Positions 22,470 through 60,373 of a DNA stretch of 64,000 bases are shown here, piece after piece. The stretch's first letter is position 1, and each line of letters opens with the position of its first letter. Below the pieces are notes generated by a model. That model worked only from the letters and a program-made list of their open reading frames with translations. It was not told the origin of the DNA and did not search any database. Source of the stretch: Parasphingopyxis algicola (lineage in GTDB: Bacteria > Pseudomonadota > Alphaproteobacteria > Sphingomonadales > Sphingomonadaceae); NCBI RefSeq assembly GCF_013378075.1, contig NZ_CP051131.1:2492501-2556500 (forward strand), given 5' to 3'. The translations under genes were made by a program, and so were the position numbers.

Positions 22470-22643
22470 TTTGTCAGACCTCGGCTATGCCTCGGCGCGG
22501 CACCGGCCCGCTCCCCCTCCCGACCTCCCATTCATTATACCCTGTGGGAGGCCGGGAGGGGGAGCGGGCCGGTGCCGCGATTTTCCGCCAAGGAAAATTC
22601 TGACTAAGGACTCTGCCGCACCGGAGTGTAGTGGAGGTCTGAC
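22470..22643. repeat. Modular TTTGTCAGA hairpin repeat, copy A
   Basis: It starts TTTGTCAGACC and holds a long central palindrome (arms of about 30 bp rich in CCCCCTCCCGACCTCC / GGGAGG...GGGGGAG). A reverse-oriented module follows: GGTGCCGCG, the hairpin ATTTTCC...GGAAAAT, then TCTGAC. A further GAGGTCTGAC near the end complements the opening motif. It fills the crtI-crtB gap. Confidence 0.85.
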
Positions 22644-22663
22644 GCAAGGTCTGGTTATCGTGC

Positions 22664-23566
22664 ATGAATAACCGCTCCACCCTCGTCGCCCAAGCTCGCG
22701 AGACGATCGGGCGCGGATCGCAGAGCTTCGCCATGGCCTCCAAGCTGTTCGACCGCGAGACGCGCGAGCGGGCCTGGCTGCTCTATGCCTGGTGCCGCCG
22801 CTGCGACGATCTCGCGGACGGGCAGGCGCTCGGCCATGACATGTCGGTCGTCGCCGATCCGGCGGCGCGGCTTGCCGAGATACGAGCCAAGACTGCGGCC
22901 GCGCTGGCCGGCGACGCGACCGGCGATTCGAGCTTCGACGCGCTCGGTCTCGTCGCGCGGGAATGCGCGATTCCGCGCCACATGATCGACGATCATATCG
23001 CCGGCTTCGCGCTCGATGCCGAGGGCTGGGTGCCGGAGACGGAGGCGGATCTTGTCCAATATTGCCACCATGTCGCGGGTGTCGTCGGCATGATGATGGC
23101 GATGGTCATGGGCGTTGCTCCGGATGACGAGGCGACGCTTGTGCGGGCCCGCGATCTCGGCCTCGCGTTCCAGCTGGCCAATATCGCGCGCGATATCGGG
23201 GAGGATGCGCGCAACGGACGCTGCTACCTGCCGCGCGCCTGGCTTGCCGGGACAGGCATCGATCGCGATCGGCTGCTCGATCCCGCTCACCGCCCGGCGC
23301 TCGCGGAGCTGGCCCGGCGGCTGGCGGGCCGCGCCGCGGATTATGAGGAGAGCGCCCGGCGCGGCACCGCCGCGCTGCCGTTCCGCTCGGCCTGGGCGGT
23401 GCTCGCGGCGGCGGGCATCTATGGCGATATCGCCCGCAAGGTCGCGGCGAAGGGCGAGGCGGCGCTCGACGAGCGCGTCTACACGACGCGGCGCGAGAAG
23501 CTCGGCTGGCTGTTCAAAAGCTGGCGTCAGGCATTGAACCGCAGGCAATACGTACCAGTTAGCTGA
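22664..23566 (+). CDS. crtB: Phytoene synthase
   Basis: A 300-residue prenyl-diphosphate condensing enzyme that joins two geranylgeranyl diphosphates into phytoene. The two aspartate-rich motifs that bind Mg2+ and diphosphate are visible as WCRRCDDLADG (residues about 44-54) and ANIARDIGEDARNGRCYLP, along with the conserved SKLFDRETRERAWLLYAWCR. It is in the same direction as crtYI and probably in the same transcript despite the repeat between them. A membrane protein follows after 3 bp. Confidence 0.96.
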   Translation: MNNRSTLVAQARETIGRGSQSFAMASKLFDRETRERAWLLYAWCRRCDDLADGQALGHDMSVVADPAARLAEIRAKTAAALAGDATGDSSFDALGLVARECAIPRHMIDDHIAGFALDAEGWVPETEADLVQYCHHVAGVVGMMMAMVMGVAPDDEATLVRARDLGLAFQLANIARDIGEDARNGRCYLPRAWLAGTGIDRDRLLDPAHRPALAELARRLAGRAADYEESARRGTAALPFRSAWAVLAAAGIYGDIARKVAAKGEAALDERVYTTRREKLGWLFKSWRQALNRRQYVPVS

Positions 23567-23569
23567 TCC

Positions 23570-24049
23570 ATGGAATTCTCCGGCCATCTGACGATCGAGC
23601 GTCCCGGCATCGTCGACCGGATCCGCGAAACGCTGCCCGAGAAGCTTGCCGCCGACGGTTTTGCGATCTTCTCGGCCGTGCCGCTGCGGGCCCGGCGCAA
23701 TCTCGGCTGGTTCGCGCGGTTCCGGGCCGAGGCTCGCCGGATCGGCGGCAAACCCGATTTCTCGGTGCGGATGGCGCAGGCCGTGCGGTTCGAACTGCCA
23801 CTCGCGGGTATGGGGCAACTGTCCTATACGATCAGCAATCCGCACCATGGCCGGGTGATTGCGGCCTTTGTCCTGCTTGCAACCCTTGCCGCCTATTTCG
23901 CCGACAGTTTCTTCGCCGCGCTGTTCGTCGCCATTGTCGGCAGCGGGCTGATCGGGATCGCGCTCCATTACCGGATGCGCAAAAGCGTCGTCCGCTATCT
24001 CGGGCTGTTGCCGAGCCAGTACAGCAATCACCGGCTGTCGATGGGTTGA
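23570..24049 (+). CDS. Conserved-looking membrane protein coupled to crtB, function unknown
   Basis: A 159-residue protein whose start is 3 bp after the crtB stop, so it is almost certainly co-expressed with the carotenoid genes. The N-terminal ~95 residues are soluble and basic (RARRNLGWFARFRAEARRIGG). Two hydrophobic helices follow (VIAAFVLLATLAAYFADSFF and AALFVAIVGSGLIGIALHY) and the tail is basic. I recognise no enzyme motif. It could be a membrane scaffold or accessory factor for the Crt enzymes, but this is inferred from position only. Confidence 0.75.
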   Translation: MEFSGHLTIERPGIVDRIRETLPEKLAADGFAIFSAVPLRARRNLGWFARFRAEARRIGGKPDFSVRMAQAVRFELPLAGMGQLSYTISNPHHGRVIAAFVLLATLAAYFADSFFAALFVAIVGSGLIGIALHYRMRKSVVRYLGLLPSQYSNHRLSMG

Positions 24050-24051
24050 TC

Positions 24052-24585
24052 CTAGATGCTCTCCGGCCGGCGGTCGGATTCGCGAAATGTGCCGACCGGC
24101 GCGCGCACGCCTTCATGGCCGCGGCGTTTCAGTTCGGCCTTCAGCTCCTCGGGCTTGGGCGCGTAGAGAAATCCGAAGCTCACCGTGCCGTCCTTGGTCT
24201 CGACGACATGGTGGAGGCGATGGGCCTGGATGATGCGCTTCATGTAATTGGATTTCGGGATGTAGCGGTGGTTCAGCCGTTTGTGCACGATCACGTCGTG
24301 AAAGCCGAAATAGATCGCGCCATAGGCGGCGATGCCCGCGCCGATCCAGGTGAAACCCGGCCACCAGCCGAGCTGCACGCCGCCGAGCAGCAGCACGATC
24401 GAGGGAATCGCGAAGATCAGCGCGTAGAAATCGTTGAGTTCCCAGTTGCCCTCGCGCGGCCGGTGATGGCTCCTGTGCAGGAACCAGCCGAACCCGTGCA
24501 TCACCCAGCGATGCGCGACATAGGCGACGCCCTCCATGAACAGGACGGTGCCGAGGAAGAGCAATATGCCGAGCGACCAGTGCAT
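24052..24585 (-). CDS. crtZ: Beta-carotene hydroxylase
   Basis: A 177-residue integral membrane di-iron hydroxylase that converts beta-carotene to zeaxanthin. The CrtZ histidine motifs are intact and in order: HRWVMH, HRSHH, HDVIVHKR and HRLHH. Four hydrophobic segments are visible. It is convergent with the crtB-linked membrane protein, 2 bp apart, so it has its own promoter, near the palindromic repeat upstream. Together with CrtY, CrtI and CrtB it predicts zeaxanthin-type yellow pigments. Confidence 0.95.
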   Translation of the reverse strand: MHWSLGILLFLGTVLFMEGVAYVAHRWVMHGFGWFLHRSHHRPREGNWELNDFYALIFAIPSIVLLLGGVQLGWWPGFTWIGAGIAAYGAIYFGFHDVIVHKRLNHRYIPKSNYMKRIIQAHRLHHVVETKDGTVSFGFLYAPKPEELKAELKRRGHEGVRAPVGTFRESDRRPESI

Positions 24586-24633
24586 GGGGTGGATATAGCG
24601 ATGCAGGATGCGGAGTGCGAGGGGCTATGACTC

Positions 24634-24727
24634 CGTCATTGCGAGGAGCCGCAAGGCGACGCGGCAATCCAGAGCCGCAAGCGTATCGCCCGGTGCCCTG
24701 GATTGCTTCGCTTCGCTCGCAATGACG
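24634..24727. repeat. GTCATTGCGAG-type palindromic repeat, copy 3
   Basis: CGTCATTGCGAGGAGCC opens and TCGCTCGCAATGACG closes this copy, with inner CGGCAATCCAGAG / CTGGATTGC. It lies in the divergent spacer between crtZ and sucC, where a bidirectional terminator role is unlikely. This suggests the family inserts into spacers generally. Confidence 0.88.
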
Positions 24728-24829
24728 CTATCGCCGGGAGAAGGGAGTCTTTTCATGCCCGCCCGACTATGCTTTAGCCCGTCCGAACCCTTCCGACTCC
24801 ATTTCGCCTGTCAGGAGCGCTTTGCCGCC

Positions 24830-26038
24830 ATGAACATCCATGAATATCAAGCCAAGGAACTGCTCGCCGAATTCGGGGTCGGCGTGCCCAAGGGGATTGC
24901 CGCGACGAGCGTCGAGGAAGCCGTTGCGGGCGCCGAACAGCTCCCCGGGCCGCTCTATGTCGTGAAGGCGCAGATCCATGCGGGCGGGCGCGGCAAGGGC
25001 AAGTTCAAGGAATTGGGCCCGGACGCCAAGGGCGGCGTGCGGCTCGCGAAATCGGTCGACGATGTGCGCAGCGACGCCGAGGAGATGCTCGGCAATACGC
25101 TCGTGACGATCCAGACGGGCGAAGCCGGCAAGGAAGTGAACCGGCTCTACGTCACCGACGGCGTCGACATCAAAGAGGAATATTATCTCGCCCTGCTCGT
25201 CGACCGGGCGTCCGGCCGGGTAGCGATGGTCGTGTCGACCGAGGGCGGCATGGACATCGAGGCGGTCGCCCACGACACGCCGGAGAAGATCGCGACGATC
25301 ACGATCGATCCGCTGGCCGGTTTCACCGAGGCCGATGGCCGCAAGGCCGCCGATGCGCTGAAGCTGTCCGGCGATCTCGCCGATACGTGCGTCAAACTCA
25401 CCGGCAATCTCTACGAGGCGTTCGTCAAGCTCGATTGCGCGATGCTCGAGATCAACCCGCTCGTCGAAACCGCCCCTGATTCTTCCGGTTCCGGGCAGCT
25501 GCTCGTCCTCGACACCAAGATGAGCTTCGATTCCAATGCCGAATTCCGGCATCCGGAATATGAGCAGTTGCGAGATGAAAGCGAGGAAGATCCCATGGAG
25601 CTCGAGGCGTCGAAGCACGACCTCGCCTATATCAAGCTCGACGGCAATATCGGCTGCATGGTGAACGGCGCGGGCCTCGCCATGGCGACGATGGATATTA
25701 TCAAACTCAACGGCGCCTTCCCGGCGAACTTTCTCGATGTCGGGGGCGGGGCCAGCAAGGAAAAGGTAACCGCCGCGTTCAAGATCATCCTGTCGGACCC
25801 GGCGGTCGAGGGCATTCTCGTCAACATCTTCGGCGGGATCATGCGCTGCGACATCATCGCCGAGGGCATCGTCGCCGCGGCCAAGGAAGTGGAACTCGAC
25901 GTGCCGCTGGTGGTTCGTCTGGAAGGGACGAACGTTGCGCAGGGCAAGGACATTCTCGCCGATAGCGGCCTGCCGATCGTCAGTGCCGACGATCTCGGCG
26001 ATGCGGCGCGCAAGATTGTGGAGCAGGTGCAGAAATAG
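24830..26038 (+). CDS. sucC: Succinyl-CoA ligase (ADP-forming), beta subunit
   Basis: A 402-residue ATP-grasp subunit of the TCA-cycle enzyme that interconverts succinyl-CoA and succinate with ATP formation. It starts [22 protein letters not shown], the canonical SucC N-terminus, and contains [25 protein letters not shown] and [18 protein letters not shown] 74-codon in-frame extension upstream runs through the palindromic repeat and is rejected. The alpha-subunit gene sucD is not adjacent; a lipoprotein gene and etfBA follow instead. Confidence 0.97.
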
Positions 26039-26155
26039 AGCTGCGCAAAAAAGGGCCGGAAAATCGGGCTCGGGCACTGGATTTTTGCAGTGCAGCATGT
26101 TAGTGACGTTTACGTGAACGTAAAGAGCGAAAGGCGGGGGCCAAGGAGGGTGACG

Positions 26156-26530
26156 ATGACGACACGATTGATCATCATGGCCGGCGCGCTGGCGCTTGCG
26201 GGCTGTTCGGCCTCGGAAACCGTCGAGGATATCGCGGCCGAAGCGCGCGCCGAGCAGGAACGGCTGACGGAAGAAGCCCGGACCCGGATCGACGAAGCCT
26301 CGGCCGAAGCCCGGTCGCGGATCGAGGAAGGCGCGGCGGCGACCGACATGCTGGGCGGCGAACTGGATCGGCGGGCCGACGAGGCCGCGGGCCGGCTCGG
26401 CGAGCGGCTCGACCAGCTCGGCGCCGAAGCCGATCGGCGGGCCGCCGAAATCGGCGACACGGCCGATCGCAATGCGCGCGAAACGCAGCAGCGCGCCGAA
26501 GAACTCGAACAGCCGACCAACGGAAACTAG
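26156..26530 (+). CDS. Small coiled-coil lipoprotein
   Basis: A 124-residue protein with a lipoprotein signal (MTTRLIIMAGALALAGC; lipobox ALAGC). The mature part is almost entirely Ala/Glu/Arg-rich heptad sequence, expected to form a long amphipathic helix or coiled coil, comparable in style to Lpp-like envelope lipoproteins. A strong ribosome site AAGGAGGG precedes the start. It sits between sucC and etfB on the same strand. Function unknown; the composition limits homology inference. Confidence 0.75.
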   Translation: MTTRLIIMAGALALAGCSASETVEDIAAEARAEQERLTEEARTRIDEASAEARSRIEEGAAATDMLGGELDRRADEAAGRLGERLDQLGAEADRRAAEIGDTADRNARETQQRAEELEQPTNGN

Positions 26531-26572
26531 AAGGACGCTGGCATACCAGCGGGAAAGCAAGGAAGCAGTAAG

Positions 26573-27319
26573 ATGAAAATACTCGTGCCCGTGAAGCGGG
26601 TGATCGATTACAACGTCAAGCCGCGGGTCAAGGCCGACGGTTCGGGCGTCGATCTCGCCAATGTCAAAATGTCGATGAATCCGTTCGACGAAATCGCGGT
26701 GGAAGAGGCGATCCGCCTCAAGGAAGCCGGCAAGGCGGAGGAAATCGTCGCCGTGTCGATCGGCCCGGCCAAGGCGCAGGAAACGCTGCGCACCGCGCTC
26801 GCCATGGGCGCCGACCGCGCGATCCTGATCGAAACCGATGACGAAGTCGAGCCGCTGGCCGTGGCCAAGCTCCTGAAGGCGGTTGCCGACGAAGAGCAGC
26901 CGGGTCTCGTGATCCTCGGCAAGCAGGCGATCGACGATGACAGCAACCAGACCGGCCAGATGCTCGCCGCGCTGCTCGGCTGGGGCCAGGGCACCTTTGC
27001 GAACACGGTCGAGGTCGGCGACGGCTCGGTAGACGTGAAGCGCGAAATCGACGGCGGTCTCCAGACCGTGAAGCTCAATCTTCCGGCGATCATCACCACC
27101 GATCTCCGCCTGAACGAGCCGCGCTATGCCTCGCTGCCCAATATCATGAAGGCGAAGTCCAAGCCGCTCGATACGAAGAGCCCGGCCGATTACGGCGTCG
27201 ATACCGCGCCGCGCCTCGCCACCAGCAACGTCTCCGAACCGCCGAAGCGCGAAGCCGGTGAGATCCTCGAGGATGTGGACGCGCTGGTCACGAAACTCAA
27301 AGAAATGGGAGTCGCCTGA
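26573..27319 (+). CDS. etfB: Electron transfer flavoprotein, beta subunit
   Basis: A 248-residue ETF beta subunit (FixA family). It starts [27 protein letters not shown], contains the signature [28 protein letters not shown] and the AMP-site region [21 protein letters not shown]. With EtfA it shuttles electrons from acyl-CoA and other dehydrogenases to the respiratory chain. The stop overlaps the etfA start (TGATG). Confidence 0.97.
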
Positions 27320-28248
27320 TGAAGACGCTCGTCTGGGTCGAACACGACAATAGCGAAATGAAGGATGCGACGCTCGCCGCGGTGACGGCGGCGTCCAAGC
27401 TCGGCGAAGTCCATGCCGTGGTGGCCGGGTCCGGCTGCCAGGCCGTGGCCGATCAGGCGGCGCAGGTCGCCGGCATCGGCAAGGTGCATCTCGCCGACGA
27501 TGCCGCGTATGAGCATGCGCTGGCCGAGAATGTCGCGCCGCTGATCGCCGATCTGATGGGGCATCACGATGCCTTCGTCGCCCCCGCCACGACGACGGGC
27601 AAGAATATCGCCCCGCGCGTCGCCGCGCTTCTGGACGTCATGCAGGTCTCCGACATCCTCTCGATCGAAGGCGACAAGAGTTTCACGCGGCCGATCTATG
27701 CCGGCAACGCGATCGCCACCGTGACGAGCTCGGACGAAAAGCTCGTGATCACGGTGCGCGGCACGGCCTTCGACAAGGCGGCGACCGAAGGCGGTTCGGG
27801 CGAGATCGAAGCCGTGAGCGGCGCCGGCGATGCGGGGCTCTCCACCTTCGTCAGCGAAGAGATTGCCGAAAGCGACCGGCCCGAACTCACCAGCGCCAAG
27901 ATCATCGTCTCGGGCGGCCGTGCGCTCGGCTCGTCGGAGAAATTCGAGGAGGTCATCACCCCGCTCGCCGACAAGCTCGGCGCGGGCATCGGCGCCAGCC
28001 GCGCCGCGGTCGATGCGGGCTATGTGCCGAACGATTACCAGGTCGGCCAGACCGGCAAGATCGTCGCGCCCGAGCTCTACATCGCGATCGGCATCTCCGG
28101 CGCGATCCAGCATCTGGCGGGCATGAAGGATTCGAAAACGATCGTCGCGATCAACAAGGACGAAGACGCGCCGATCTTCCAGGTCGCCGATTACGGCATC
28201 GTGGCGGATTTGTTCAACGCGGTTCCGGAGCTGACGGAGAAGCTCTAA
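27319..28248 (+). CDS. etfA: Electron transfer flavoprotein, alpha subunit
   Basis: A 309-residue ETF alpha subunit that binds the FAD cofactor. The C-terminal FAD domain is clear: [49 protein letters not shown] and [20 protein letters not shown]. It is translationally coupled to etfB. A strong hairpin begins 2 bases after the stop and is probably the transcript end. Confidence 0.97.
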
Positions 28249-28249
28249 G

Positions 28250-28276
28250 AGCCTTCTCCCTTGATGGGAGAAGGCT
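28250..28276 (+). terminator. Strong hairpin immediately after etfA
   Basis: AGCCTTCTCCC, a five-base loop, GGGAGAAGGCT: an 11-bp perfect stem right after the etfA stop. No clear T-run follows, so it may act as a processing or stabilising hairpin rather than an intrinsic terminator. Confidence 0.5.
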
Positions 28277-28315
28277 ATGAAGCCTTATAAGCGGAGCGAA
28301 TTAGGCGAAGTTGGT

Positions 28316-28450
28316 TGAGGGTGAGCGGAACTGCGTTCCGCGCGCTTTCTTTGAAAGCGCACCCCTCACCCTGACCCTCTCCCACAAGGGGAGAGGGAGT
28401 TGAGAAACGCCAGATCAGTAATCGCCGTCACCCCGGACACGATCCGGGGT
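28316..28450. repeat. Cluster of consecutive palindromes in the etfA-SDR gap
   Basis: Four adjacent hairpins follow one another: GCGGAACTGCGTTCCGC, GCGCTTTCTTTGAAAGCGC, CCCTCTCCCACAAGGGGAGAGGG and CCCCGGACACGATCCGGGG. The first two lie inside a GAGGGTGAG / CTCACCCT pair. This is a REP-like composite with no coding sense. Confidence 0.75.
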
Positions 28451-28524
28451 ACAAGTCGATGGGCGATATTGTTTCTGACTCTTGATTCCGAATTAGGCTC
28501 CGGTTTGCGCCGGGGCTTTGGGGC

Positions 28525-29502
28525 TCAGGCCTCCGCCAGCAACTCCTGGCTAATCTCCCAAAGCTTCTCCGCATTGTCGTCGTCGCACGCATGCGCGTCG
28601 ACGCCGCGGTAGCGGGCCAGCGGATTGTCGGGTTCGGTCGGTGCGGCGATGTCGCAATCCTCGCAATAGACGCCGGGCTTGCCGTCGAGCTTGGCTGATG
28701 TCGCGGCCCAGAGCGTCGTCGAACAGCCCTGGGCCGGGGTCTTGAAGCCCTGTTTTGCGAGTTCGGAGGGTTCGCCGTCTTCGTCGAGCCAGCCCATGGC
28801 GATCTGTTCCTCGACCGGCAGGTGCCGCTGGAGGGGCGTGAAGATGCCGCCGGGATGAACGGCGAACGCGAGGCCGCCCTTGTTGCGCATCCGCCGGTTC
28901 AGCGCATTGGCGAACAGCGCGTTGGCGGTCTTGGCCTGTCCATAGGCTTCCCATTTGTCATAGTCGCCGCGTTCAAATTGCAGATCGTCCCAGCGGATAT
29001 CGCTGACCTTGTGCGCGGTCGAGGAGAGCGCGACGACGCGGGCGCCCGGCGTCTTTTCGAGCAGTGGCATCAGGCCGAGCGTCAGCGCGAAATGGCCCAT
29101 ATGGTTGGTGCCGAACTGCGATTCCCAGCCGGGGCCCACGCGCGCTTCGGGGCAGGCCATGATCCCGGCATTGTTGATCAGGAGGTCGAGCCGGTCGAGC
29201 GCGCCGGTCATCTCGTCGGCGAACCGCCGCACCGATCCGATATCGCCCAGGTCCATGTCGCCGACCCGGACCGCGCCGTCGATCTCGGCCAGATTGGTCT
29301 CCGCCTTTTCCCGGCTGCGCGCGGGTACGATCACATCGACCCCGGCACCGACCAGCGCGCGGACGGTTTCGAGCCCGATCCCGCTATAGCCGCCGGTGAC
29401 GATCGCGGTCCTGCCGGCAAGATCGATGTCCTTGATGACGTCGGCGCCGTCCGTCTTGGCGGGAAAGCCGGAATCCGTGGGTACCTGGTCTGCGACTGCC
29501 AT
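28525..29502 (-). CDS. Short-chain dehydrogenase/reductase
   Basis: A 325-residue SDR of the WW-domain-oxidoreductase / retinol-dehydrogenase-like type. The NAD(P)-binding motif TGGYSGIGLETVRALV follows a 28-residue N-terminal extension. Further features are NNAGIMACPE and the catalytic YGQAK (Tyr-x-x-x-Lys). The C-terminal third contains three cysteines in YCEDCD and AHACDDD. The substrate is unknown. The gene stands alone on the minus strand, convergent with etfA and downstream of the carD terminator. Confidence 0.9.
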   Translation of the reverse strand: MAVADQVPTDSGFPAKTDGADVIKDIDLAGRTAIVTGGYSGIGLETVRALVGAGVDVIVPARSREKAETNLAEIDGAVRVGDMDLGDIGSVRRFADEMTGALDRLDLLINNAGIMACPEARVGPGWESQFGTNHMGHFALTLGLMPLLEKTPGARVVALSSTAHKVSDIRWDDLQFERGDYDKWEAYGQAKTANALFANALNRRMRNKGGLAFAVHPGGIFTPLQRHLPVEEQIAMGWLDEDGEPSELAKQGFKTPAQGCSTTLWAATSAKLDGKPGVYCEDCDIAAPTEPDNPLARYRGVDAHACDDDNAEKLWEISQELLAEA

Positions 29503-29555
29503 GCTCGTCTCTCCTTATGCGTTCCAGCTTTTCCGTTTCCCGACCCTAAACGAAG

Positions 29556-29589: not shown

Positions 29590-29615
29590 TTCCCACTCTC
29601 GCTGGCGCGAAACCG

Positions 29616-31382: not shown

Positions 31383-31387
31383 GCGTC

Positions 31388-35707: not shown

Positions 35708-35753
35708 GCTCCTCTACCCGGAAGCTTGAGAGTTATTCGGGGTTTGAGTTTTC

Positions 35754-35908
35754 TTGTCAGACTCGACCTGCCGGCTGGGCGCCGCACCGGGATTCTTTCG
35801 TCAGACCTTCGGCTCCGCCTCAGGCGCGGGCCGGTGCCGCGATTTTCCGCCAAGGAAAATTCTGACAAATCGAATCCTGCGCTTCGCCCAGCCGGCAGGT
35901 CGAGTCTG
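35754..35908. repeat. Modular TTTGTCAGA hairpin repeat, copy B
   Basis: It opens TTGTCAGA followed by a 24-bp arm at 35758-35781, whose perfect inverted copy lies at 35885-35908 and ends GGTCGAGTCTG. Inside are a second TTCGTCAGA module and a reverse module with hairpin ATTTTCC...GGAAAAT then TCTGACAAA. It occupies the convergent spacer between the M23 peptidase and herA genes. Confidence 0.9.
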
Positions 35909-35913
35909 CCACA

Positions 35914-49998: not shown

Positions 49999-50008
49999 GG
50001 GCTTTTTC

Positions 50009-50062
50009 CGTCAGACTCGACCTGGCGGTGCCGCGATTTCGCGTCAGCGAAATTCTGACAAA
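50009..50062. repeat. Modular TTTGTCAGA hairpin repeat, copy C (short)
   Basis: CGTCAGACTCGACC is followed by a reverse-oriented module: CGGTGCCGCG, hairpin ATTTCGC-GTCA-GCGAAAT, then TCTGACAAA. It is the minimal form of the family, placed between hisA and hisF inside the operon. Confidence 0.9.
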
Positions 50063-50809: not shown

Positions 50810-50822
50810 GAGGAAATTCCTT

Positions 50823-50960
50823 CTGTCAGAATTTCCCTGCCGGAAAATCGCCGCACCGGCCCGCACCCCCTCCCGACCTCCCAATCAGGATACATTCGTG
50901 GGAGGTCGGGAGGGGGTGCGGGCCGGTGCGGTGCTCGACCGTCAGGCCGAGTCTGACAAA
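50823..50960. repeat. Modular TTTGTCAGA hairpin repeat, copy D
   Basis: CTGTCAGA with hairpin ATTTCCC...GGAAAAT and CGCCGCACCGG opens the copy. A long central palindrome with arms of about 33 bp follows (CCCCCTCCCGACCTCCCA / TGGGAGGTCGGGAGGGGG). It closes with hairpin CTCGACC...GGCCGAG and TCTGACAAA. It fills the hisH-hisA gap. Confidence 0.92.
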
Positions 50961-52223: not shown

Positions 52224-52456
52224 TTTTGTCAGACCTTCGCTGCGCTCAGGCGCCGCACCAGCCCTCTCCCCCTTCCCGACCTCCCATTGACTGTACCCTG
52301 TGGGAGGTCGGGAAGGGGGAGAGGGCTGGTGCGGAGATGTTGCGCTAGCAACATTCTGACAAACAAGAACCCGGTGCCGCGCTCGACCGCCAGGTCGAGT
52401 CTGACAAACAAAAACCCGATGCGGCGGACTTGCGGCGGCAAGTTTCTGACAAACAA
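52224..52456. repeat. Modular TTTGTCAGA hairpin repeat, copy E (three tandem modules)
   Basis: It opens TTTTGTCAGACC and a central palindrome. Then come three tandem reverse modules, each a small hairpin followed by TCTGACAAACAA: ATGTTGC-GC-TAGCAACAT, CTCGACC-GCCA-GGTCGAG and ACTTGC-GGCG-GCAAGT. The modules are joined by AACCCGGTGCCGCG-type linkers. It takes up most of the 318-bp divergent gap between hisB and the sspB-like gene; no gene is seen in that gap. Confidence 0.93.
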
Positions 52457-53030: not shown

Positions 53031-54425
53031 ATGACAGATACCACTCGTACCGAAACCGACTCCATCGGCCCGATCGAGGTGCCTGCCGATGCCTATTGGG
53101 GCGCGCAGACCCAGCGCAGCCTCGAAAATTTTCCGTTCGCCTCGCACGAGCGTATGCCGCTCGGCATCGTTCACGCGCAGGCGGCGGTCAAACAGGCGGC
53201 GGCCCGGGTCAACAAGAAGCACGGGCTGGACGAGAAGGTCGCCGATGCGATCGAGGCTGCTGCAACGGCGATCCGCGAGGGCACGCATGACGGCGAGTTT
53301 CCGCTGACCATCTTCCAGACCGGCTCCGGCACGCAGACCAATATGAATGTCAACGAGGTGATCGCGGGCATCGCCAACGAGGCGCTGGCGGGGACGCGCG
53401 GCGGCAAGGATCCGGTGCATCCAAACGATCATGTCAACATGTCGCAAAGCTCGAACGACAGTTTCCCGACGGCGCTTCACGTTTCCACGGCGCTGGCGAC
53501 GCGGGACCGGCTCGTCCCGGCGCTCGACATGCTGATCAGTGCGATCACGGACAAGGCGGAGGCCTGGGACGATATCGTCAAGATCGGCCGCACCCATACC
53601 CAGGATGCGACGCCGCTGACGCTCGGTCAGGAATTTTCCGGCTATGCGGCGCAGCTGATCAGCTGCAAGGCGCGGATCGAGGGCGCGCTCCAGGGCAATA
53701 TAGCCAAGCTCGCCATCGGCGGCACGGCGGTCGGCACCGGGCTCAACGCGCCCGAGGGCTGGGCCGGGGACATGGCCGGCGCGATCAGCGACATTACCGG
53801 TTTCGCTTTCGAAAGCGCGCCCAACAAATTCGAGCACCTCGCCGCCAAGGACGGGCTCGTCTTCTTCTCCGGCGCGCTCAACACGCTCGCTGTGGCACTC
53901 ACCAAGATCGCCAACGATATCCGCTTCCTCGGATCGGGGCCGCGCTCCGGGCTCGGCGAACTTTCGCTGCCGGCCAACGAACCGGGCAGCTCGATCATGC
54001 CGGGCAAGGTCAATCCCACCCAGTGCGAAAGCCTGACCATGGTCGCCGCGCAAGTAATCGGCAATCACCAGGCCGTTACGGTGGGCGGTATGCAGGGACA
54101 TTTCGAACTCAACGTCTTCATGCCGTTGATCGGGGCCAATGTTCTGCGCTCGATCAATCTATTGGCGACAGGCATGACGAGTTTCGCCGAACGCTGCGTT
54201 ACGGGCATCGAACCCAATCGCGAGAAGATAAAGGAGCTTGTCGATCGCTCGCTGATGCTGGTCACAGCGCTGGCGCCGGAGATCGGTTATGACAACGCCG
54301 CCGCGATCGCGAAACATGCACACAAAAAGGGCCAGACCCTGAAGGAAGCGGGGCTCGAGCTGGGGCTGGTCGACGAGGAAACCTTCGACCGGGTCGTGCG
54401 CCCGGAAAAGATGATCGGCCGCTAG
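53031..54425 (+). CDS. fumC: Class II fumarate hydratase
   Basis: A 464-residue tetrameric fumarase of the TCA cycle, oxygen-stable and iron-free. Typical segments are [75 protein letters not shown] and the superfamily signature [15 protein letters not shown]. Length matches FumC. The GST gene follows after 14 bp, suggesting one transcript. Confidence 0.97.
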
Positions 54426-54439
54426 GGAAAGGCCTCGGC

Positions 54440-55054
54440 ATGCTGCTCTACAATGCGCCCGATCCCGCGCCCAATCCGCGCCGGGTCCGCCTGTTCCTCG
54501 CCGAGAAGGGGCTCGATATCCCGATGCGCGACCTCGCCATCGTCGAGCGCGAGCAGAAGGCGCCCGATTTCCTGGCGAAAAACCCGGCTGGCCAGCTGCC
54601 CGCACTCGAGCTCGACGACGGAACCGTTATCGCCGAGAGCGTATCCATCTGCCGCTATCTCGAAGCACTGCACCCCGATCCGCCCCTGTTCGGCTCGAGC
54701 CCGGAAGAGATGGCGCGGATCGATATGTGGCTCCGCCGGGTCGAGAACATGCTGATGGTGCCGGTCGGCATGGTCTGGATCCATAGCCACCCGTTCACCG
54801 CCGGACTCGGCCGGCAGTTCACCGATTTCGGCGAGGCCAGCAAGGAGCGCGTCGCCAAGGCGAAGGCCTGGTTCGACGGTCAGCTCGACGGATCCGACTA
54901 TCTGGCGGGTGAGCGCTATTCGATGGCAGATATCATGCTGCTGACGACGGTCGATTTCGCCCTGTGGATCGGCCTCGACATGCCCGAAGACGCCGGCAAT
55001 CTCCGCGATTGGCATGACCGCGTGTCCACGCGCGAAAGCGTTCAGCGCGCCTGA
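54440..55054 (+). CDS. Glutathione S-transferase family protein
   Basis: A 204-residue GST. The N-terminal thioredoxin-like domain has APDPAPNPRRVRLFLAEKGL and the glutathione-binding NPAGQLPALELDDGTVIAESVSICRYLE. An alpha-helical C-terminal domain follows, with DYLAGERYSMADIMLLTTVDFA. It conjugates glutathione to electrophiles or has peroxidase activity. It is placed directly behind fumC. Confidence 0.92.
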   Translation: MLLYNAPDPAPNPRRVRLFLAEKGLDIPMRDLAIVEREQKAPDFLAKNPAGQLPALELDDGTVIAESVSICRYLEALHPDPPLFGSSPEEMARIDMWLRRVENMLMVPVGMVWIHSHPFTAGLGRQFTDFGEASKERVAKAKAWFDGQLDGSDYLAGERYSMADIMLLTTVDFALWIGLDMPEDAGNLRDWHDRVSTRESVQRA

Positions 55055-55150
55055 TCCTTTCGCGTTCGACCTCCGCCGGTTGTTTGACATCCGGAACAAT
55101 CGCCGCTCCATCCCCGTTGATGGAGAGAAATCGAACATGATGGGGCAACA

Positions 55151-56011
55151 ATGGACGCAGGTTTTCTAACGATATTACAGGATCAGCTTGGCGACATGGC
55201 CGAGGCGACGGTGCGGATGCTGCCGCAACTCGCGATCGGGCTGTTTATTCTCGTCATTACCTGGGCGCTGGCCAAGGGCGGCCGCAAGATCGCGCATCGC
55301 TTCATCGGCAAGACCGATATCCGGCCGAGTCTGTTGACGCTGATCGAAACGGTCGTGACGATCTTTATCTGGATCATCGGCCTGTTCGCGACCGCCGCGA
55401 TCATTCTCCCGGGCATCACGCCCGCCAGCATCCTTGCCGGTCTCGGCATAGGTGCGGTCGCGATCGGCTTCGCCTTTCAGGACATTTTCGAGAATTTTCT
55501 TGCCGGTGTGCTGATCATGATCCGCGAAAAGATGCGGATCGGCGATGTCATCGAATGCGAGGGGATTACCGGCAAGGTCGAAAAGATAACCCTGCGCGAA
55601 ACCCATATCCGCAAGCTTTCGAACGAAGTGACGATCGTTCCCAACTCGATCCTGTTCAAGAACCCGGTCGAGATTTTCACCGACGACCCGGGCCGCCGGC
55701 ACGAGGTCGTGTGCGGCGTCGCCTACGATGTCGATCTCGACGAGGCGGCCGAGGTTATCGAGGAGGCGGTCAAGACTTGTGACAAGGTCGACACGTCGAG
55801 AGGCATCGACATCTTCGCCACCGAGTTCAATTCGAGTTCGGTCGATTACCGCATCCGCTGGTGGTCGGGATCGAAACCGCGCGACATGCATGAAAGCCGC
55901 GATCAGGTGATCCGTGCTGTGAAACGGGCATTGGACGACGCCGGGATCGAAATACCGTTCCCGTACGTTACCCATACGTTCAAGGAACCCGTACCGCTGG
56001 AGAGTAAATGA
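55151..56011 (+). CDS. Small-conductance mechanosensitive channel (MscS family)
   Basis: A 286-residue MscS-type channel that opens on membrane tension to release solutes. Three hydrophobic helices are visible, the pore-lining TM3 being SILAGLGIGAVAIGFAFQDIFENFLAGVLIMI. The beta domain follows with GDVIECEGITGKVEKITLRETHIRKLSNEVTIVPNS, and a cytoplasmic vestibule domain closes the protein. Its stop overlaps the next gene's start by four bases. Confidence 0.94.
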   Translation: MDAGFLTILQDQLGDMAEATVRMLPQLAIGLFILVITWALAKGGRKIAHRFIGKTDIRPSLLTLIETVVTIFIWIIGLFATAAIILPGITPASILAGLGIGAVAIGFAFQDIFENFLAGVLIMIREKMRIGDVIECEGITGKVEKITLRETHIRKLSNEVTIVPNSILFKNPVEIFTDDPGRRHEVVCGVAYDVDLDEAAEVIEEAVKTCDKVDTSRGIDIFATEFNSSSVDYRIRWWSGSKPRDMHESRDQVIRAVKRALDDAGIEIPFPYVTHTFKEPVPLESK

Positions 56012-56325
56012 TGAGCCTGATCAGAAGCATAGCCCGGGGCGCCGTCGGCAGCGGCGTGCGCCGCCGGACCGCGGGGCGCGGAATTCTCGGTGCGGGCCTC
56101 GGCCTGATCGCCGCGCGGATCGCGACCCGCTCGCTCCCCGGTGCGGCTTTGGTCGGCGGCGGCCTCGTCGCCAAATATCTGTGGGACAAAAAACGCGAGC
56201 GCGAGGCGGCTGAAACCGGCGGTCTCGACGCGCGCGATGCCGAAATGGCAGCCGCGCGCGCCGAGGGCGAAACCGATATCGCCGCGGCCGCCGCGCCTGC
56301 GAGCGAACCGCCGGCCGCGTCCTAG
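56008..56325 (+). CDS. Small Gly/Arg-rich protein coupled to the MscS gene, unknown function
   Basis: A 105-residue protein. The N-terminal half is basic and glycine-rich with a weakly hydrophobic stretch (ILGAGLGLIAARIATRSLPGAALVGGGLVAKYLW). The C-terminal half is Ala/Glu-rich. It may associate with the membrane. An ATGA overlap with mscS implies coupled translation. Its stop overlaps the end of the convergent Met/His-rich protein gene by four bases. Confidence 0.65.
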   Translation: MMSLIRSIARGAVGSGVRRRTAGRGILGAGLGLIAARIATRSLPGAALVGGGLVAKYLWDKKREREAAETGGLDARDAEMAAARAEGETDIAAAAAPASEPPAAS

Positions 56326-57392
56326 AAGGTTCCCTGCCAGCCCAGAGTGAGCGTCCAGTTGGTGTCCATCTGCGGCCCGTTCAGGTCCTGATAGATCGGT
56401 GTGCCGACCTCGATCGCGAGCCGTTGACCTTCCAGCCCGCCTTGCGCGGCCAGGTTGACGCCGACAAACGCATCGATGCGCCCGCCGCCCTGGAAATCGG
56501 GATTGGCGGTCTGGACCGGCCCCATGATCATCGGATCGATGCCGTCCACCCGGCCGGTCGTGCGCGCCGCGAGGCGACCTGAAAAGCTGATCCAGTAGGC
56601 GGGCTCATAGCTGACCCAGCCCGTCACCTCATGCACGTCGCCATAGGCGAAGCCATTGTCGTTCTCGCCGAGCCGGATCGTGCCGTTATATTGCAGCCCC
56701 CAGCCGATATTCGCCTCGTCCGCATAGCCGCGATAGGTGAGCGCGGGTTTCAGGTCCCAGGTGCCGGAGCCGATCTGCATCGAATAGGGTAGCCGGATCG
56801 TCGGCGTGCCGCCCGTCGGCGTCAGGATATCGTCGGTCTCGGTCGTCGATCCCACCGGTATGCTGACTGCCGCACGGGCCAGCACCTCATAGCGTCGATG
56901 CGCTTTGGTGATCGGAAACAGGCCGCCGACGGTAATATCGCCGATGCCTTCTGGCCGGGTGGTAAAGCCGCCGAGCTGGGTAGTGCCCATACCGCCCTGA
57001 TAGGTGATATGCTCCATTTCCTTGGAGATATAGCTGCCCATCGCGATCAAGGTGACCCAGTCGGTCGGCGCATACATCGCGCCGATCATGTGCATGTCCA
57101 TCCGCATTTCGGTCGGCACGATGCGCAGGGTCGGCGGCTGGCCCGGATTGCCGAAAAAGCGGTTGGGAACGGTGGTGACGATCTCGTCGGGCGTCACTGT
57201 GTCGGTGCCGATGCGGTTGCCGCCCATGTCCATATGCATGAAGCGGTAGGAGAACATGACCTCGCCGGCGGAATGGGTATGATCGGCCATGACGCCGATC
57301 GGCGCATGTCCGTCGGCATGGGCACCGTCATGCGCGGCGAGCGGGGTAGCGAGAAGCGCGGCGGAAAGCGCCGCGAGAGAAGCGTGTTTCAC
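56322..57392 (-). CDS. Met/His-rich exported envelope protein, possibly metal (copper)-related
   Basis: A 356-residue protein starting at GTG (AAGGA upstream) with a signal peptide (VKHASLAALSAALLATPLAAHD). The N-terminal part is rich in His and Met: HDGAHADGHAP, HTHSAG, MHMDMGG and MRMDMHMIGAMY. The rest shows alternating strands and ends in WQGTF, as in outer-membrane barrels. A DUF2946 protein gene lies just upstream on the same strand, a combination suggestive of copper or silver handling. The metal role is inferred from composition and context. Confidence 0.7.
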   Translation of the reverse strand: MKHASLAALSAALLATPLAAHDGAHADGHAPIGVMADHTHSAGEVMFSYRFMHMDMGGNRIGTDTVTPDEIVTTVPNRFFGNPGQPPTLRIVPTEMRMDMHMIGAMYAPTDWVTLIAMGSYISKEMEHITYQGGMGTTQLGGFTTRPEGIGDITVGGLFPITKAHRRYEVLARAAVSIPVGSTTETDDILTPTGGTPTIRLPYSMQIGSGTWDLKPALTYRGYADEANIGWGLQYNGTIRLGENDNGFAYGDVHEVTGWVSYEPAYWISFSGRLAARTTGRVDGIDPMIMGPVQTANPDFQGGGRIDAFVGVNLAAQGGLEGQRLAIEVGTPIYQDLNGPQMDTNWTLTLGWQGTF

Positions 57393-57452
57393 GAAACATA
57401 TCCTTGCTGAATCGATGGTGGTTCGCACCCGGGATCGAGCGCGATGGTCGGT

Positions 57453-57878
57453 TCAGAAGGTGAGCGGGGGTCCGGTCTGCGGCGGCGGCGGCGCGGCGAG
57501 CCCGGCGCCGATGGCGACAAGACCGGCGGGCGGGAAGCTGGTTGCGCCGGAGGGCGGCGGGATCTTCGCGATCGCGATCGCCGATGTTTTGGCGATGGAA
57601 TTGGGTGCCGCCGCATAGTCGCAGGGCGTGTTGTCGCTTTCCGGCGCCGGCTCGTCGTCCATCGCATCGGCAAGCGCGAGCATGGCGGCCGGGGCATTGT
57701 CGGGCAGCGACGCGCGTTGCAGCCCCTGACCCGTGCAGAGCATGATCCGCGGGCCGTCGGCACCGAAAACCGGCATGAAGCCGTTCGGGACGAGCGCCTG
57801 GGCGACCAAGAAAACCGCCGCCAGGAACCGGACGCGGCTCCCGCGCAGCCGTTTCAAAGGGGAAAGCCGATTTGCCAT
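57453..57878 (-). CDS. DUF2946-like protein
   Basis: A 141-residue protein. An N-terminal hydrophobic segment with ALVPNGFMPVFG is followed by RIMLCTGQG, the usual DUF2946 opening, and a further Cys (NTPCDY). The C-terminal part is Ala/Pro-rich with a second hydrophobic stretch. Members often sit beside TonB receptors or copper genes. It is 60 bp upstream of the Met/His-rich protein gene and probably co-transcribed with it. Confidence 0.65.
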   Translation of the reverse strand: MANRLSPLKRLRGSRVRFLAAVFLVAQALVPNGFMPVFGADGPRIMLCTGQGLQRASLPDNAPAAMLALADAMDDEPAPESDNTPCDYAAAPNSIAKTSAIAIAKIPPPSGATSFPPAGLVAIGAGLAAPPPPQTGPPLTF

Positions 57879-57933
57879 CGCGCGCGCTATGACGGATCGG
57901 GTCGGGCTTGGCTATCCCTATTCGGCCCTGCCG

Positions 57934-58251
57934 TCAGGCGCTGAGTTCGTAGCTCTCGTCGAGCCACCGCTGCCAGATGTCGGCGGGAATCGGGTCTTCG
58001 TTCGAGAAGCGTGCGGTGACCCAGGGCGGTTTTCCGACCTGATAACTGTCCGGTTCGGCCGCGGCGAGTTTTTCCGCCTCGGCGATGGAGTCCTTCAGCT
58101 TGAGCATCACCTTGTACCGGCCGCCCTGTTCTCCGGCGAAGAGAAACGCCTTCTTTCCCCGCTTGAACGAGTTTTGGGTGCACGATGTGACTTCCGCGAC
58201 CTCGGGATACTGGCTTGCCTTCAGCTTTATCGTTTCGAGTATGTCGGTCAT
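57934..58251 (-). CDS. MmcQ/YjbR-family protein
   Basis: A 105-residue protein of the MmcQ/YjbR double-wing fold: FKRGKKAFLFAGEQGGRYKVMLKLKDSIAEAEKL and VGKPPWVTARFSNEDPIPADIWQRWLDESYELSA. The family is sometimes described as DNA-binding, but its biological role is unclear. It lies 18 bp downstream of the DUF2585 gene on the same strand. Confidence 0.88.
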   Translation of the reverse strand: MTDILETIKLKASQYPEVAEVTSCTQNSFKRGKKAFLFAGEQGGRYKVMLKLKDSIAEAEKLAAAEPDSYQVGKPPWVTARFSNEDPIPADIWQRWLDESYELSA

Positions 58252-58269
58252 CGCACCCCCTTTCAGGCC

Positions 58270-58839
58270 TCACAGCGCCGCCTGCCACTCCCTTATCACA
58301 TCGATCGGCCAGACCAGCATCAGCACATTGAGCGTGAGGTTGTCGCGGATCATCCAGAGCGTGAACAGCTCGAAGGCGAGCGCGATGGCGACGGTCGGCC
58401 ACAGCCCGATGCGCCGGGCGATCAGGAAACCCAATGCCATCCAGCCGATATCGGCGATCGAGTTGATGATCGCGTCGCCAGAATAGCCGAACGCCGCCGT
58501 CGCCTCGCGATAGCGGTTGATGATGATCGGCGAGTTTTCGAGCACTTCCCAGGCCGCCTCGATCGCAACCGCGAGGCAGAACCAGAGGCCGACCGGGCGG
58601 CGGCGCAGGAGCAGCCAGCCCAGGCCGCAGAAGAGAAAGCCATGGATGATATGGCTCGGTACATACCAGTCGGCCAGATGCTGGCTGTTGTCCGGGCCAT
58701 GGACCTCGCCGACCCAAAATTTGATCTCGCCGCAAGTGCAGATCGGGTTGCGGCCCATCAGATAGAGGATGATCGCCGCGGCGAGGACGATGGCCGTCGC
58801 GGTAATCCAGTAATGGCGTGCGATATCGCCCTCCCCCAT
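58270..58839 (-). CDS. DUF2585 (UPF0314) integral membrane protein
   Basis: A 189-residue membrane protein with about five hydrophobic helices. It carries the family features GRNPICTCGEIKFWVGEVHGPDNSQHLADWYVPSHIIHGFLF and EAAWEVLENSPIIINRYREATAAFGYSGDAIINSIADI. Conserved His, Cys and acidic residues hint at a catalytic or metal site, but no function is known to me. It is divergent from gmk across 35 bp. Confidence 0.88.
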   Translation of the reverse strand: MGEGDIARHYWITATAIVLAAAIILYLMGRNPICTCGEIKFWVGEVHGPDNSQHLADWYVPSHIIHGFLFCGLGWLLLRRRPVGLWFCLAVAIEAAWEVLENSPIIINRYREATAAFGYSGDAIINSIADIGWMALGFLIARRIGLWPTVAIALAFELFTLWMIRDNLTLNVLMLVWPIDVIREWQAAL

Positions 58840-58874
58840 CTTGACGTCTCGGCACGCTTGCGCGAACCGGGACC

Positions 58875-59507
58875 ATGGCCGATCCGATCCAGCTTGAGCG
58901 CCGCGGGCTCCTGTATGTCCTTTCATCGCCGAGCGGGGCGGGCAAGTCCACCATCGCGCGCAAGCTGCTCGCGGCTGATCCCGAGATTTCGCTGTCGGTA
59001 TCGGCGACGACCCGGCCGATCCGCGAGGGCGAGACCGACGGCGCGCATTATCACTTCGTCGACAATGCCGAGTTCGACCGGATGGTGGAGCAGGGCGCAT
59101 TTCTCGAATGGGCGCATGTCTTCGACCGGCGCTACGGCACGCTCAAGGCCGAGGTGAACAAGGCGCTCGATGTCGGGCGCGACGTGCTGCTCGATATCGA
59201 CTGGCAGGGGACACAGCAATTGAAGCAGGTCGATCCCGATATCGTCCGCGTCTTCATCCTGCCGCCATCGATGGAGGAGCTCGAACGCCGGCTGCGCGGG
59301 CGCGGGACCGACAGCGACGAAGTCATCGCCGGGCGGATGGAGCGCGCCGCGGCGGAAATCAGCCACTGGGCCGAATATGATTATGTGCTCGTCAACGACG
59401 ATGCGGAGAAATGCGCGGCGCGGGCCAAGGCGATCCTCGAGGCCGAACGGCTGCGCCGCAACCGCCGCACGGGGCTCGTCGATTTCGTGCGCGGGCTGAC
59501 GGGATAG
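58875..59507 (+). CDS. gmk: Guanylate kinase
   Basis: A 210-residue nucleotide kinase that phosphorylates GMP to GDP. The P-loop is SSPSGAGKST; the GMP-binding region reads SVSATTRPIREGETDGAHYHFVDNAEF and FLEWAHVFDRRYGT. The lid includes LRGRGTDSDEVIAGRM, and YDYVLVNDD is also conserved. Length and start are standard. Confidence 0.97.
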   Translation: MADPIQLERRGLLYVLSSPSGAGKSTIARKLLAADPEISLSVSATTRPIREGETDGAHYHFVDNAEFDRMVEQGAFLEWAHVFDRRYGTLKAEVNKALDVGRDVLLDIDWQGTQQLKQVDPDIVRVFILPPSMEELERRLRGRGTDSDEVIAGRMERAAAEISHWAEYDYVLVNDDAEKCAARAKAILEAERLRRNRRTGLVDFVRGLTG

Positions 59508-59578
59508 GGCCCGGACGGGCTTTTCATCGCCGCCCGGCAGGCGTAGCTTTCGCGCCAACGGTTAGGGGAGAGAATCTC

Positions 59579-60166
59579 ATGCTCAAAGTCATTCCGGGCG
59601 CGATCGTCGCGGCGGTCGCCATGTTCATCATCGGTTTCATCGCCTACGGGCTGCTCGGCAGCATTCCGGTCGGCGATGTCGGCGATAGCGAGGCGGCCGC
59701 GATCCAGAGCGTACTCGCCGCGAATATGGACAATGAGGCGGCGCGCACGGTGCTCGTGCCCTCCGGGTCGGGCGAGGTGCAGCAGCGCATGTATCTCGAC
59801 GGGCCGATCGCGATGATCCACTATAATCCGAGCGGTTTCGCGATCGGCGCGGGTTCGACGATGCTCGCCGGGTTCATCCATATGCTGATATCGGCGCTGA
59901 TCATCGGGGCGGCTTTGTTCACCCTGTCCGGCCATGTCCGCGATTTCGGCGCGCGGATCTCGATCGTCGCGCTGTTCGGGATCGCCGCCGCCTTTTACAT
60001 GAATCTCGGCAATCCGGTCTGGTGGCACCATGACTGGATCTATCACGGCTTCGTCTTCTTCATCGACGCGCTGAGCTTCATCGTGGCGGGCGCGATCATC
60101 GCGCGCTGGTTCCTGCCCAGGCATATCGACAGCGACGACCGTTTCGGAGAGGAACAGGAGAGATAG
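59579..60166 (+). CDS. Integral membrane protein of unknown function
   Basis: A 195-residue protein with four hydrophobic helices (VIPGAIVAAVAMFIIGFIAYGLL, TMLAGFIHMLISALIIGAALF, ISIVALFGIAAAFYM and FFIDALSFIVAGAIIARWFLP). A region with WWHHDWIYHGF lies between the last two. A periplasmic loop of about 60 residues follows the first helix. AGGGGAG precedes the ATG. It is about 70 bp after gmk on the same strand. I cannot assign a family with certainty. Confidence 0.75.
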   Translation: MLKVIPGAIVAAVAMFIIGFIAYGLLGSIPVGDVGDSEAAAIQSVLAANMDNEAARTVLVPSGSGEVQQRMYLDGPIAMIHYNPSGFAIGAGSTMLAGFIHMLISALIIGAALFTLSGHVRDFGARISIVALFGIAAAFYMNLGNPVWWHHDWIYHGFVFFIDALSFIVAGAIIARWFLPRHIDSDDRFGEEQER

Positions 60167-60167
60167 G

Positions 60168-60373
60168 TTCGTCAGACTCGACCTTGCCGGTCGAGCGCGG
60201 CACCGGGATTTGTTCGTCAGAATTTCCCTATAGGGAAATCGCGGCACCGGTCCGCTCCCCCTCCCGACTTCCCATTGAGTATACCCTAGTGGGAGGCCGG
60301 GTGGGGGTGCGGGCCGGTGCGGCGCTCGACCGACAGGTCGAGTCTGACAATAAGAATCGCACGTCTGACAAAT
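60168..60373. repeat. Modular TTTGTCAGA hairpin repeat, copy F
   Basis: Two forward modules come first: TCGTCAGA-CTCGACC-TTGCC-GGTCGAG-CGCGGCACCGG and TCGTCAGA-ATTTCCC-TATA-GGGAAAT-CGCGGCACCGG. A central palindrome follows, then reverse modules: CTCGACC...GGTCGAG-TCTGACAA and a last TCTGACAAA. It fills the convergent gap between the membrane protein and ATP12 genes. Confidence 0.93.

Follow-up and report, generated by a model that had tools for sequence, protein, structure and literature searches.

Repetitive extragenic palindromes (REPs) that carry a CGTC end tag are, in those parts of the study by Di Nocera, De Gregorio and Rocco (2013, PMC3733652) drawn on here, mostly alphaproteobacterial, lack a transposase and are arranged as head-to-head dimers; the same parts report that heterodimers are favoured in several CGTC REP families with 'no obvious explanation', and suggest escape from SbcCD. 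Here we describe an element of this kind in a 64,000-nucleotide stretch of the genome of Parasphingopyxis algicola, a marine bacterium (contig NZ_CP051131.1, positions 2,492,501 to 2,556,500 of the forward strand; hereafter the window). The full unit of 139 bp consists of a tag, a hairpin (L), a palindromic core, a second hairpin (R) and the inverted tag. Each hairpin is kept self-complementary and selection acts on nucleic-acid shape, the two partners within Parasphingopyxis elements are unlike, and orthologous sites differ in carrying the element and are often empty. With little more than even confidence, we lean towards a REP-type, non-autonomous intergenic DNA element whose cross-shaped form is recognised in trans and in which a filter against palindromes keeps the partners unlike. 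A preliminary description of the window had recognised no described family, which was partly wrong, as the CGTC/TGTC-tagged REPs of PMC3733652 are of the same kind; an exact match was not found in the parts of that study used here.

Hairpin stems, fold and unlike partners

The repeated module, TGTCAGA-hairpin-CGCSGCACCGG, occurs in 77 exact-flank copies at 50 sites of the 3.67-Mb source genome, with none for the reversed-pattern control, and the tail form CGCGGCACCGG accompanies tag and hairpin in 34 exact copies. The tag TTTGTCAGA is present nine times in the window against 0.14 expected, a count reached by 0 of 100 shuffles. Modules from 42 source-genome stretches and 76 other loci stand as inverted pairs around the core, a GC-rich palindrome with 35-bp arms whose exact pattern has 51 copies in the source genome. 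Extra tandem modules at a pitch of 44-45 bp are frequent, in the arrangements ++-, +-- and ++--, and 98 inverted and 36 tandem (head-tail) pairs were counted before exclusions. The hairpin modules of the preliminary description were real, but the unit proved to consist of two inverted modules and the core between them; additional modules stand in tandem at 52371-52453 and 60168-60206. Our inverted-pair set holds 96 of the 98 pairs, since two same-stem pairs (loci L012 and L013) are palindromic beyond the element at contig starts; both contigs, from the metagenome-assembled genome NZ_JANQNS, begin with perfect palindromes that include the flanks and are probably assembly fold-backs at elements. 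Across the 96, TTTGTCAGA is the end tag at 55 left and 69 right ends, and ATTGTCAGA (12 left, 6 right) and TTCGTCAGA (5 left, 4 right) are among the commonest others. Main-class stems are 7 bp long, follow an AGA spacer, begin with an A-T or C-G pair and close on loops of 4 nt; a second class with GA/GA mismatches (CCTC/CCTTCG type) has loops of 3 and 4 nt.

Pairing within the stems is close to complete. In 7-4-7 hairpins of the source genome (n = 88), 591 of 616 arm cells pair, compared with a mean of 329 and a maximum of 386 in 2000 between-module shuffles, and in other genomes (n = 107, a set that includes loci of ten scattered single matches outside the sphingomonads) the figure is 719 of 749 against a shuffled mean of 388; the arms are near-perfect, with few wobble pairs. 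Altogether 155 of 198 hairpins, a set that again includes those scattered loci, are perfect, falling into 16 distinct stems linked by 8 single-pair double changes. Arm cells count copies and not events, as stem classes are inherited by copying, so that safer evidence lies in these 8 single-pair steps together with a change made in place: at the site 50822-50960, P. lamellibrachiae (G002; relatives are labelled by G numbers) carries ATTTTCT/AGAAAAT where the window has ATTTCCC/GGAAAAT, and the seventh left-stem pair differs on both sides, C-G vs T-A, while still paired.

The arrangement of the whole element was assessed in an alignment (A1) of 85 of the 96 pairs, those of odd length being left out. 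A four-way structure pairs 95.4% of cells, against 84.2% with shuffled partners and 40-49% when slid, and contains 571 double-change cells against 206 shuffled. Double changes occur in all hairpin pairs (7/7 + 7/7), in 10/35 core pairs and in 1/9 tag pairs, and the constant flanks with compensating stem changes noted in the preliminary description are borne out by both-side changes in 14/14 hairpin pairs. One long palindrome joining L with R was rejected (83.9% paired against 84.2% shuffled). The four-way cross, composed on one strand of paired tags, hairpin L, hairpin R and the core stem, is the computed DNA minimum-energy fold in both elements folded; by computed energy, the element is predicted to fold as a fixed four-way cross and not as one long palindrome.

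The two hairpins of an element avoid each other's stems. In none of the 96 pairs are the three leading base pairs the same in L and R (expected 15.3, and never below 6 in 4000 shuffles); three pairs share two or more (19.8 expected), and 20 have the same foot pair (43.4 expected), with A-T facing C-G in 68. The pattern holds separately in the 44 source-genome pairs (three shared, 0 against 8.1 expected; two or more, 0 against 9.3; foot, 6 against 20.4), in the 52 other pairs (0 against 7.3, 3 against 10.1 and 14 against 22.9) and among 76 distinct stem combinations (0 against 10.6, 3 against 14.7 and 19 against 33.5). With the fold-backs kept, the same class is found in 2/98 (9.8 expected) and similar stems in 2/98 (13.6 expected). 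Adjacent tandem modules have similar stems in 0/36 cases against 4.8 expected, and their feet are unbiased (14 alike against 16.8 expected). Thirteen of 64 source-genome hairpins are found repeatedly, loop included, and each is combined with 2-5 different partner stems; among the 44 pairs no L-R combination is repeated. Half-elements therefore reassort, and the pairs did not arise by simple copying of a few founders.

Unlike partners would also arise from deletion alone, and this leads to an account in which the palindromes are passive: templated quasi-palindrome correction at replication would keep the arms matched, equal partners would be deleted, and no function would be selected. The near-perfect arms with few wobble pairs fit this account, as do 12 of the 43 imperfect hairpins, in which each arm equals that of a known perfect stem and the arms of two such stems are combined. 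It leaves unexplained why loops retain G..A around freely varying middle bases, why the tag is fixed and the core conserved from genus to genus, and why elements favour gene ends, and the imperfect hairpin ATTTTCC-GCGA-GGGAAAT stands uncorrected at four source-genome sites; we consider it improbable.

Loop sequences speak for DNA and single out one of the strands. Along the strand 5'-core-hairpin-TCTGACA-3', loop and closing pair read cGNNAg in 172 of 198 hairpins, with 14 middle dinucleotides and GNRA in only 37 of the 172; on that strand, hairpins of the CCT class mostly combine GA/GA mismatches with GNA or GNNA loops. Selection for stable DNA tetraloops yielded four motifs, d(cGNNAg) among them (Nakano et al. 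2002, cited in PMC8373063). The shape selected is probably that of DNA, and the earlier wording, 'RNA or single-stranded DNA', is narrowed towards DNA, short of proof, by the loops, the presence of both orientations in each complete element and the unlike-partner rule. The core fits a four-run G-quadruplex motif in 90/96 and 83/96 elements on its two strands and in 39/40 loci of other genera, against 12/1920 mononucleotide shuffles, a weak control for a sequence of G runs. The core columns with the highest variability lie preferentially between runs of G; window positions 22496-22579 are one example of such a core. GANTC (CcrM-type) sites occur in 53/96 elements, 52 of 54 such sites lying at the tag-stem join; in the 40 other-genus loci, 15 of 30 are at a distance of 60-79 bp from the centre, which is the position of the tag.

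Genomic sites, relatives and distribution

All 57 source-genome clusters (at most one flank mismatch) are intergenic by a simple codon-based gene caller written for this analysis, 27 between convergent, 25 between codirectional and 5 between divergent genes; among 60 gene neighbours in the window the corresponding numbers are 10, 40 and 10. This enrichment at convergent gene ends, with divergent gaps rare (5/57), is what would be expected if the hairpins acted in RNA, stabilising or terminating messages at gene 3' ends under selection on the transcript, and many REPs are thought to be transcribed according to PMC3733652. Each complete element has both orientations, however, and its transcript would contain one GNNA-type and one UNNC-type loop; GNRA is a minority among the loops; unlike partners are not obviously needed by an RNA; and Rfam gave no match at the modules at the gathering threshold. 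In addition, one element lies between a His_biosynth and an amidotransferase gene, and strong termination there is unlikely because the gap in relatives (G001, G004 and G005) is 7-21 bp. We find selection on RNA an unlikely explanation.

Orthologous sites were compared at three neighbouring positions in the window (A-C), whose flanks are conserved in the genus. The 84-bp slot at site A measures 13-18 bp in G004, G005 and G009, and 131 and 58 bp in G002 and G001, with no tagged module seen. Site B (168 bp) shrinks to 7-21 bp in G001, G004 and G005 and to 53 bp without an element in G009; the element is present in G002. Site C (276 bp), for which the comparison rests on G004, G005 and G009, is 49 bp in G004 and holds unrelated inserts of 945 bp in G005 and 1339 bp in G009. 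Four of six further source-genome sites (L122:1970, L122:4387, L118:3179 and L118:8457, given as locus and position) are without the element in the relatives compared; at L122:12808 and L122:7794, the corresponding gene end in G005 has elements or modules close by, and at L122:12808 G009 and G004 have a lone module. In the source genome (L122:12700-12800), G009 and G004 (L153, L154), one and the same gene end carries a single GA/GA-class module, which suggests an old module that may predate the nearby element.

Copies are not spread evenly: the richest 200 kb of the source genome holds 19 sites, compared with a mean of 7.3 and a maximum of 12 in 1000 random draws. The interval 2.57-2.77 Mb, 5% of the genome, contains 18 of the 50 sites and lies close to the position opposite the dnaA gene (0.983 Mb); in G002, 8 of 11 distinct model matches, among those listed, lie at 1.88-1.99 Mb. 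A recent burst of copying is ruled out by nearest-neighbour identity among the 44 source-genome elements (median 0.892, maximum 0.950).

Exact copies occur in 8 of 10 Parasphingopyxis genomes (77, 51, 20, 10, 6, 5, 2, 1, 0 and 0), the two without being drafts that are 87 and 66% complete. Scanning a named genome collection, which may leave out source-genome records, returned 76 stretches: 61 from Parasphingopyxis, 5 from other Sphingomonadales and 10 scattered single matches. A covariance model of the element, at rough E-values up to 1e-5, finds matches in 60 of the 149 Sphingomonadaceae genomes scanned, representing 44 of 96 genera; three of the 60 are Parasphingopyxis, where a match is expected. 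Among 190 genomes from across the Alphaproteobacteria it matches 12, the source genome included. Copy numbers per genome are lower bounds, as at most the best 21 or 17 candidates were scored. Among the high-scoring model matches, 40 loci from 18 genomes of other genera have nearly the same core with other hairpins and tags, and 15 loci from 8 genomes of other families have a similar core, more diverged in L206, L207 and L212. The exact core pattern is found in 5 of the 398 genomes of the phylum that were scanned (source included), all alphaproteobacterial. The core has no match in 50,697 phages and matches 3 of 72,556 plasmid records, all sphingomonad; the copy on the S. sanguinis plasmid is flanked by genes for a TonB receptor and a nucleotide sugar dehydrogenase, and another match is on an N. 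resinovorum plasmid without annotation there. A more far-reaching and less likely possibility is a class-wide alphaproteobacterial family of crosses, with a conserved G-quadruplex-capable core and hairpins that are lineage-specific and interchangeable; selected non-identity of the hairpins would yield an immobile four-way junction, recognised and moved by a structure-specific nuclease or recombinase that is not RAYT, and the element would be a mobile one coded by its shape. The 40 other-genus loci contain 43 hairpins of at least 6 bp, 22 with G..A loops, a weaker tendency than in Parasphingopyxis. Beyond Parasphingopyxis the rule of unlike partners is not established, as at least three of 13 two-hairpin loci (L161, L163 and L192) have sequence-related stems, and because of these three loci we lowered our estimate of the class-wide family, which we now hold doubtful.

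In the window itself, the six copies of the preliminary description were recovered by the covariance model at the places it gave, with all six named stems: four complete 139-bp elements, one degenerate and one without a core. Two (22470 and 60213) belong to the model's alignment and match by construction; the other four lie outside that alignment. The element at 22470..22607 (129 bits) has a GA/GA-class left hairpin, the core palindrome and a right stem ATTTTCC, and is followed by a degenerate outer module remnant at 22614..22643 (- strand; inverted pair I2, 77%). The degenerate copy at 35753..35869 (50 bits) lies in imperfect inverted arms (35755-35805 / 35861-35911). At 50007..50062 (26.7 bits), a deletion derivative joins half of a CTCGACC left module to an ATTTCGC right module, with the core lost, between two His_biosynth-family genes whose slot is empty in G004, G005 and G009. 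A complete element at 50822..50960 (140.6 bits; left ATTTCCC/GGAAAAT, right CTCGACC/GGCCGAG) separates a His_biosynth-family gene from the glutamine amidotransferase gene, at a slot that is filled in G002 and holds no element in G001, G004, G005 and G009, and another at 52225..52363 (121 bits; left GA/GA class, right ATGTTGC) separates an IGPD-family gene from a divergent SspB-family gene, with tandem extra modules CTCGACC at 52371..52408 (- strand) and ACTTGC at 52416..52453 (- strand, direct repeat D1). A tandem extra module CTCGACC with the CGTC form of the tag (60168..60206, + strand) precedes the complete element at 60213..60351 (130 bits; left ATTTCCC, right CTCGACC), and an isolated tag TTTGTCAGA follows at 60364..60372 (- strand). 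Two points of the preliminary description need correcting: the left module at 50.8 kb has one mismatch (ATTTCCC vs GGAAAAT), and the list of stems lacked the CCTC/CCTTCG class (modules 22472 and 52227), which forms a GA/GA internal loop on the other strand. The flanking genes include two His_biosynth genes and those for glutamine amidotransferase, IGPD and SspB. Elsewhere, the window contains a thiamine pyrophosphate riboswitch (Rfam RF00059, 1188-1301, - strand, 67.8 bits) and a cobalamin riboswitch (RF00174, 19445-19641, - strand, 76.7 bits).

Proposed recognition of the cross and the search for an enzyme

In the reading we lean towards, the cross would be the form that is recognised, moved or copied when strands separate at replication or a cruciform extrudes, and an enzyme supplied in trans would read the tag together with the adjoining cGNNAg-capped hairpin. 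Under this proposal L and R have to differ, since two identical hairpins and the core between them would form a single perfect palindrome with arms of about 62 bp, which hairpin nucleases such as SbcCD would remove. Acting together, the palindrome filter, single-pair change and reassortment of half-elements could generate the many stem classes. Recognition as single-stranded DNA or a cruciform, the SbcCD filter and the enzyme are parts that we infer. Should the cross indeed be the recognised form, it would represent an immobile junction that occurs in nature and is under selection. The core, for its part, can serve as bait for the missing enzyme.

Several observations weigh against this reading. 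The minimum palindrome arm for SbcCD quoted in PMC3733652 is 8-16 bp, which the 35-bp arms of the core exceed, and yet the core persists; the filter would therefore have to be graded, and this point slightly lowered our confidence in the reading. The foot effect weakens in shuffles restricted to pairs alike over fewer than 3 bp (20/96 against 31.8, p 0.004; 19/76 against 26 for distinct combinations, p 0.04), and exactly equal stems number 2/98 against 5.3 (p 0.08), both being the dropped fold-backs. The outer L and R tags do not covary (784/864 identical against 790 shuffled), which rules out a co-selected outer stem between them, and the base of the cross may be the constant tag instead of a selected stem. 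The loop argument is supportive, not exclusive, because GNNA loops also score well in one RNA ligation assay (PMC11773311). No fresh copies are seen among the 44 source-genome elements (identity at most 0.95), and the family may be idle. A clean target duplication was not seen at sites A-C, where relatives are only about 74-90% identical. Finally, the Y1 transposase domain of the RAYT family was not found in the source genome, where no other transposase family was searched.

That last result bears on whether the element is an ordinary REPIN moved by a RAYT, a Y1 HUH transposase. Its anatomy is that of a REPIN, with tagged hairpins in head-to-head dimers between genes, and 13 of 60 model-positive family genomes do have a Y1 domain. 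The Y1 search covered the source genome and 29 relatives, then 149 family genomes, and its tally against the model treats both 149-genome sets as the same draw (identifiers match wherever they are listed). Y1 occurs in 24 of the 149; 47 of the 60 model-positive genomes are without it, and 11 of 89 model-negative ones have it. The source genome, richest in copies of the 10 genus genomes, has none, and in the two genus genomes with Y1 the 3.3-kb loci around the gene contain no module. The preliminary description had suggested looking for a RAYT/Y1 gene flanked by the same modules; none was found in the source genome or beside the two genus Y1 genes (L091 in G008 and L088 in G006, about 220-235 aa). 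A core-like match in L088, with two mismatches allowed, lies inside the Y1 reading frame and was taken as chance. An ordinary RAYT-driven REPIN is thus largely refuted for the source genome and is, in our estimate, very improbable.

Comparison with known systems

The GTAG REPs and REPINs that form a REPtron with a RAYT resemble the element in their short tagged hairpins, inverted pairs, intergenic position and presumed reading as single-stranded DNA, and differ from it in that the tag here is TGTC/CGTC and no Y1 gene was found in the genome. Miniature inverted-repeat transposable elements (MITEs) likewise have inverted ends, are non-coding and multi-copy, and leave element-free sites in relatives; here, in contrast, target duplication is not evident at three sites, and the internal hairpins vary and reassort. 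The Caulobacter CIR repeats, reportedly described by Chen and Shapiro in 2003 as long intergenic alphaproteobacterial inverted repeats linked to GANTC sites, resemble in that description the present element, 53 of 96 copies of which contain GANTC. The open-licence literature searched yielded no paper naming the element in its title or the start of its abstract, and no closer match emerged from the parts of PMC8266576, PMC6006769 and PMC12306157 covered.

The CGTC-tagged REPs come closest. Compared by the text description in PMC3733652, as far as covered, both have an unpaired end tag, with CGTC often changed to TGTC; loops of 4-5 nt there and 4 nt here (3-4 nt in the GA/GA class); subsets defined by stems that differ yet stay complementary; dimers joined head to head, many of them heterodimers; spacers that in some of their families have complementary ends; and no associated transposase, here for the Y1 family only. 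They differ in that stems are 8-9 bp there against 7 bp here, with AGA between tag and stem; the first two pairs are almost always A-T there, whereas the first pair is A-T or C-G here; the tail is mostly CCA there and CGCSGCACCGG here; head-tail arrangements are negligible there, whereas 36 tandem pairs accompany 98 inverted ones here; and the spacer here is a long conserved palindrome. Because stem length, stem start and tail do not fit and the rarity of head-tail pairs is not shared, we do not file the element in CGTC-1 to 4. The preference for unlike partners is now quantified in one genus, reaching towards the first base pair, and both the heterodimer preference and the missing transposase, open points in the covered parts of Di Nocera et al., become testable here. 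The element is REP-like and closest to the CGTC-tagged REPs, with which it agrees in kind but not in family, and what makes it unusual is the rule of unlike partners, the DNA-type loops tied to one strand and a core that extends across the class.

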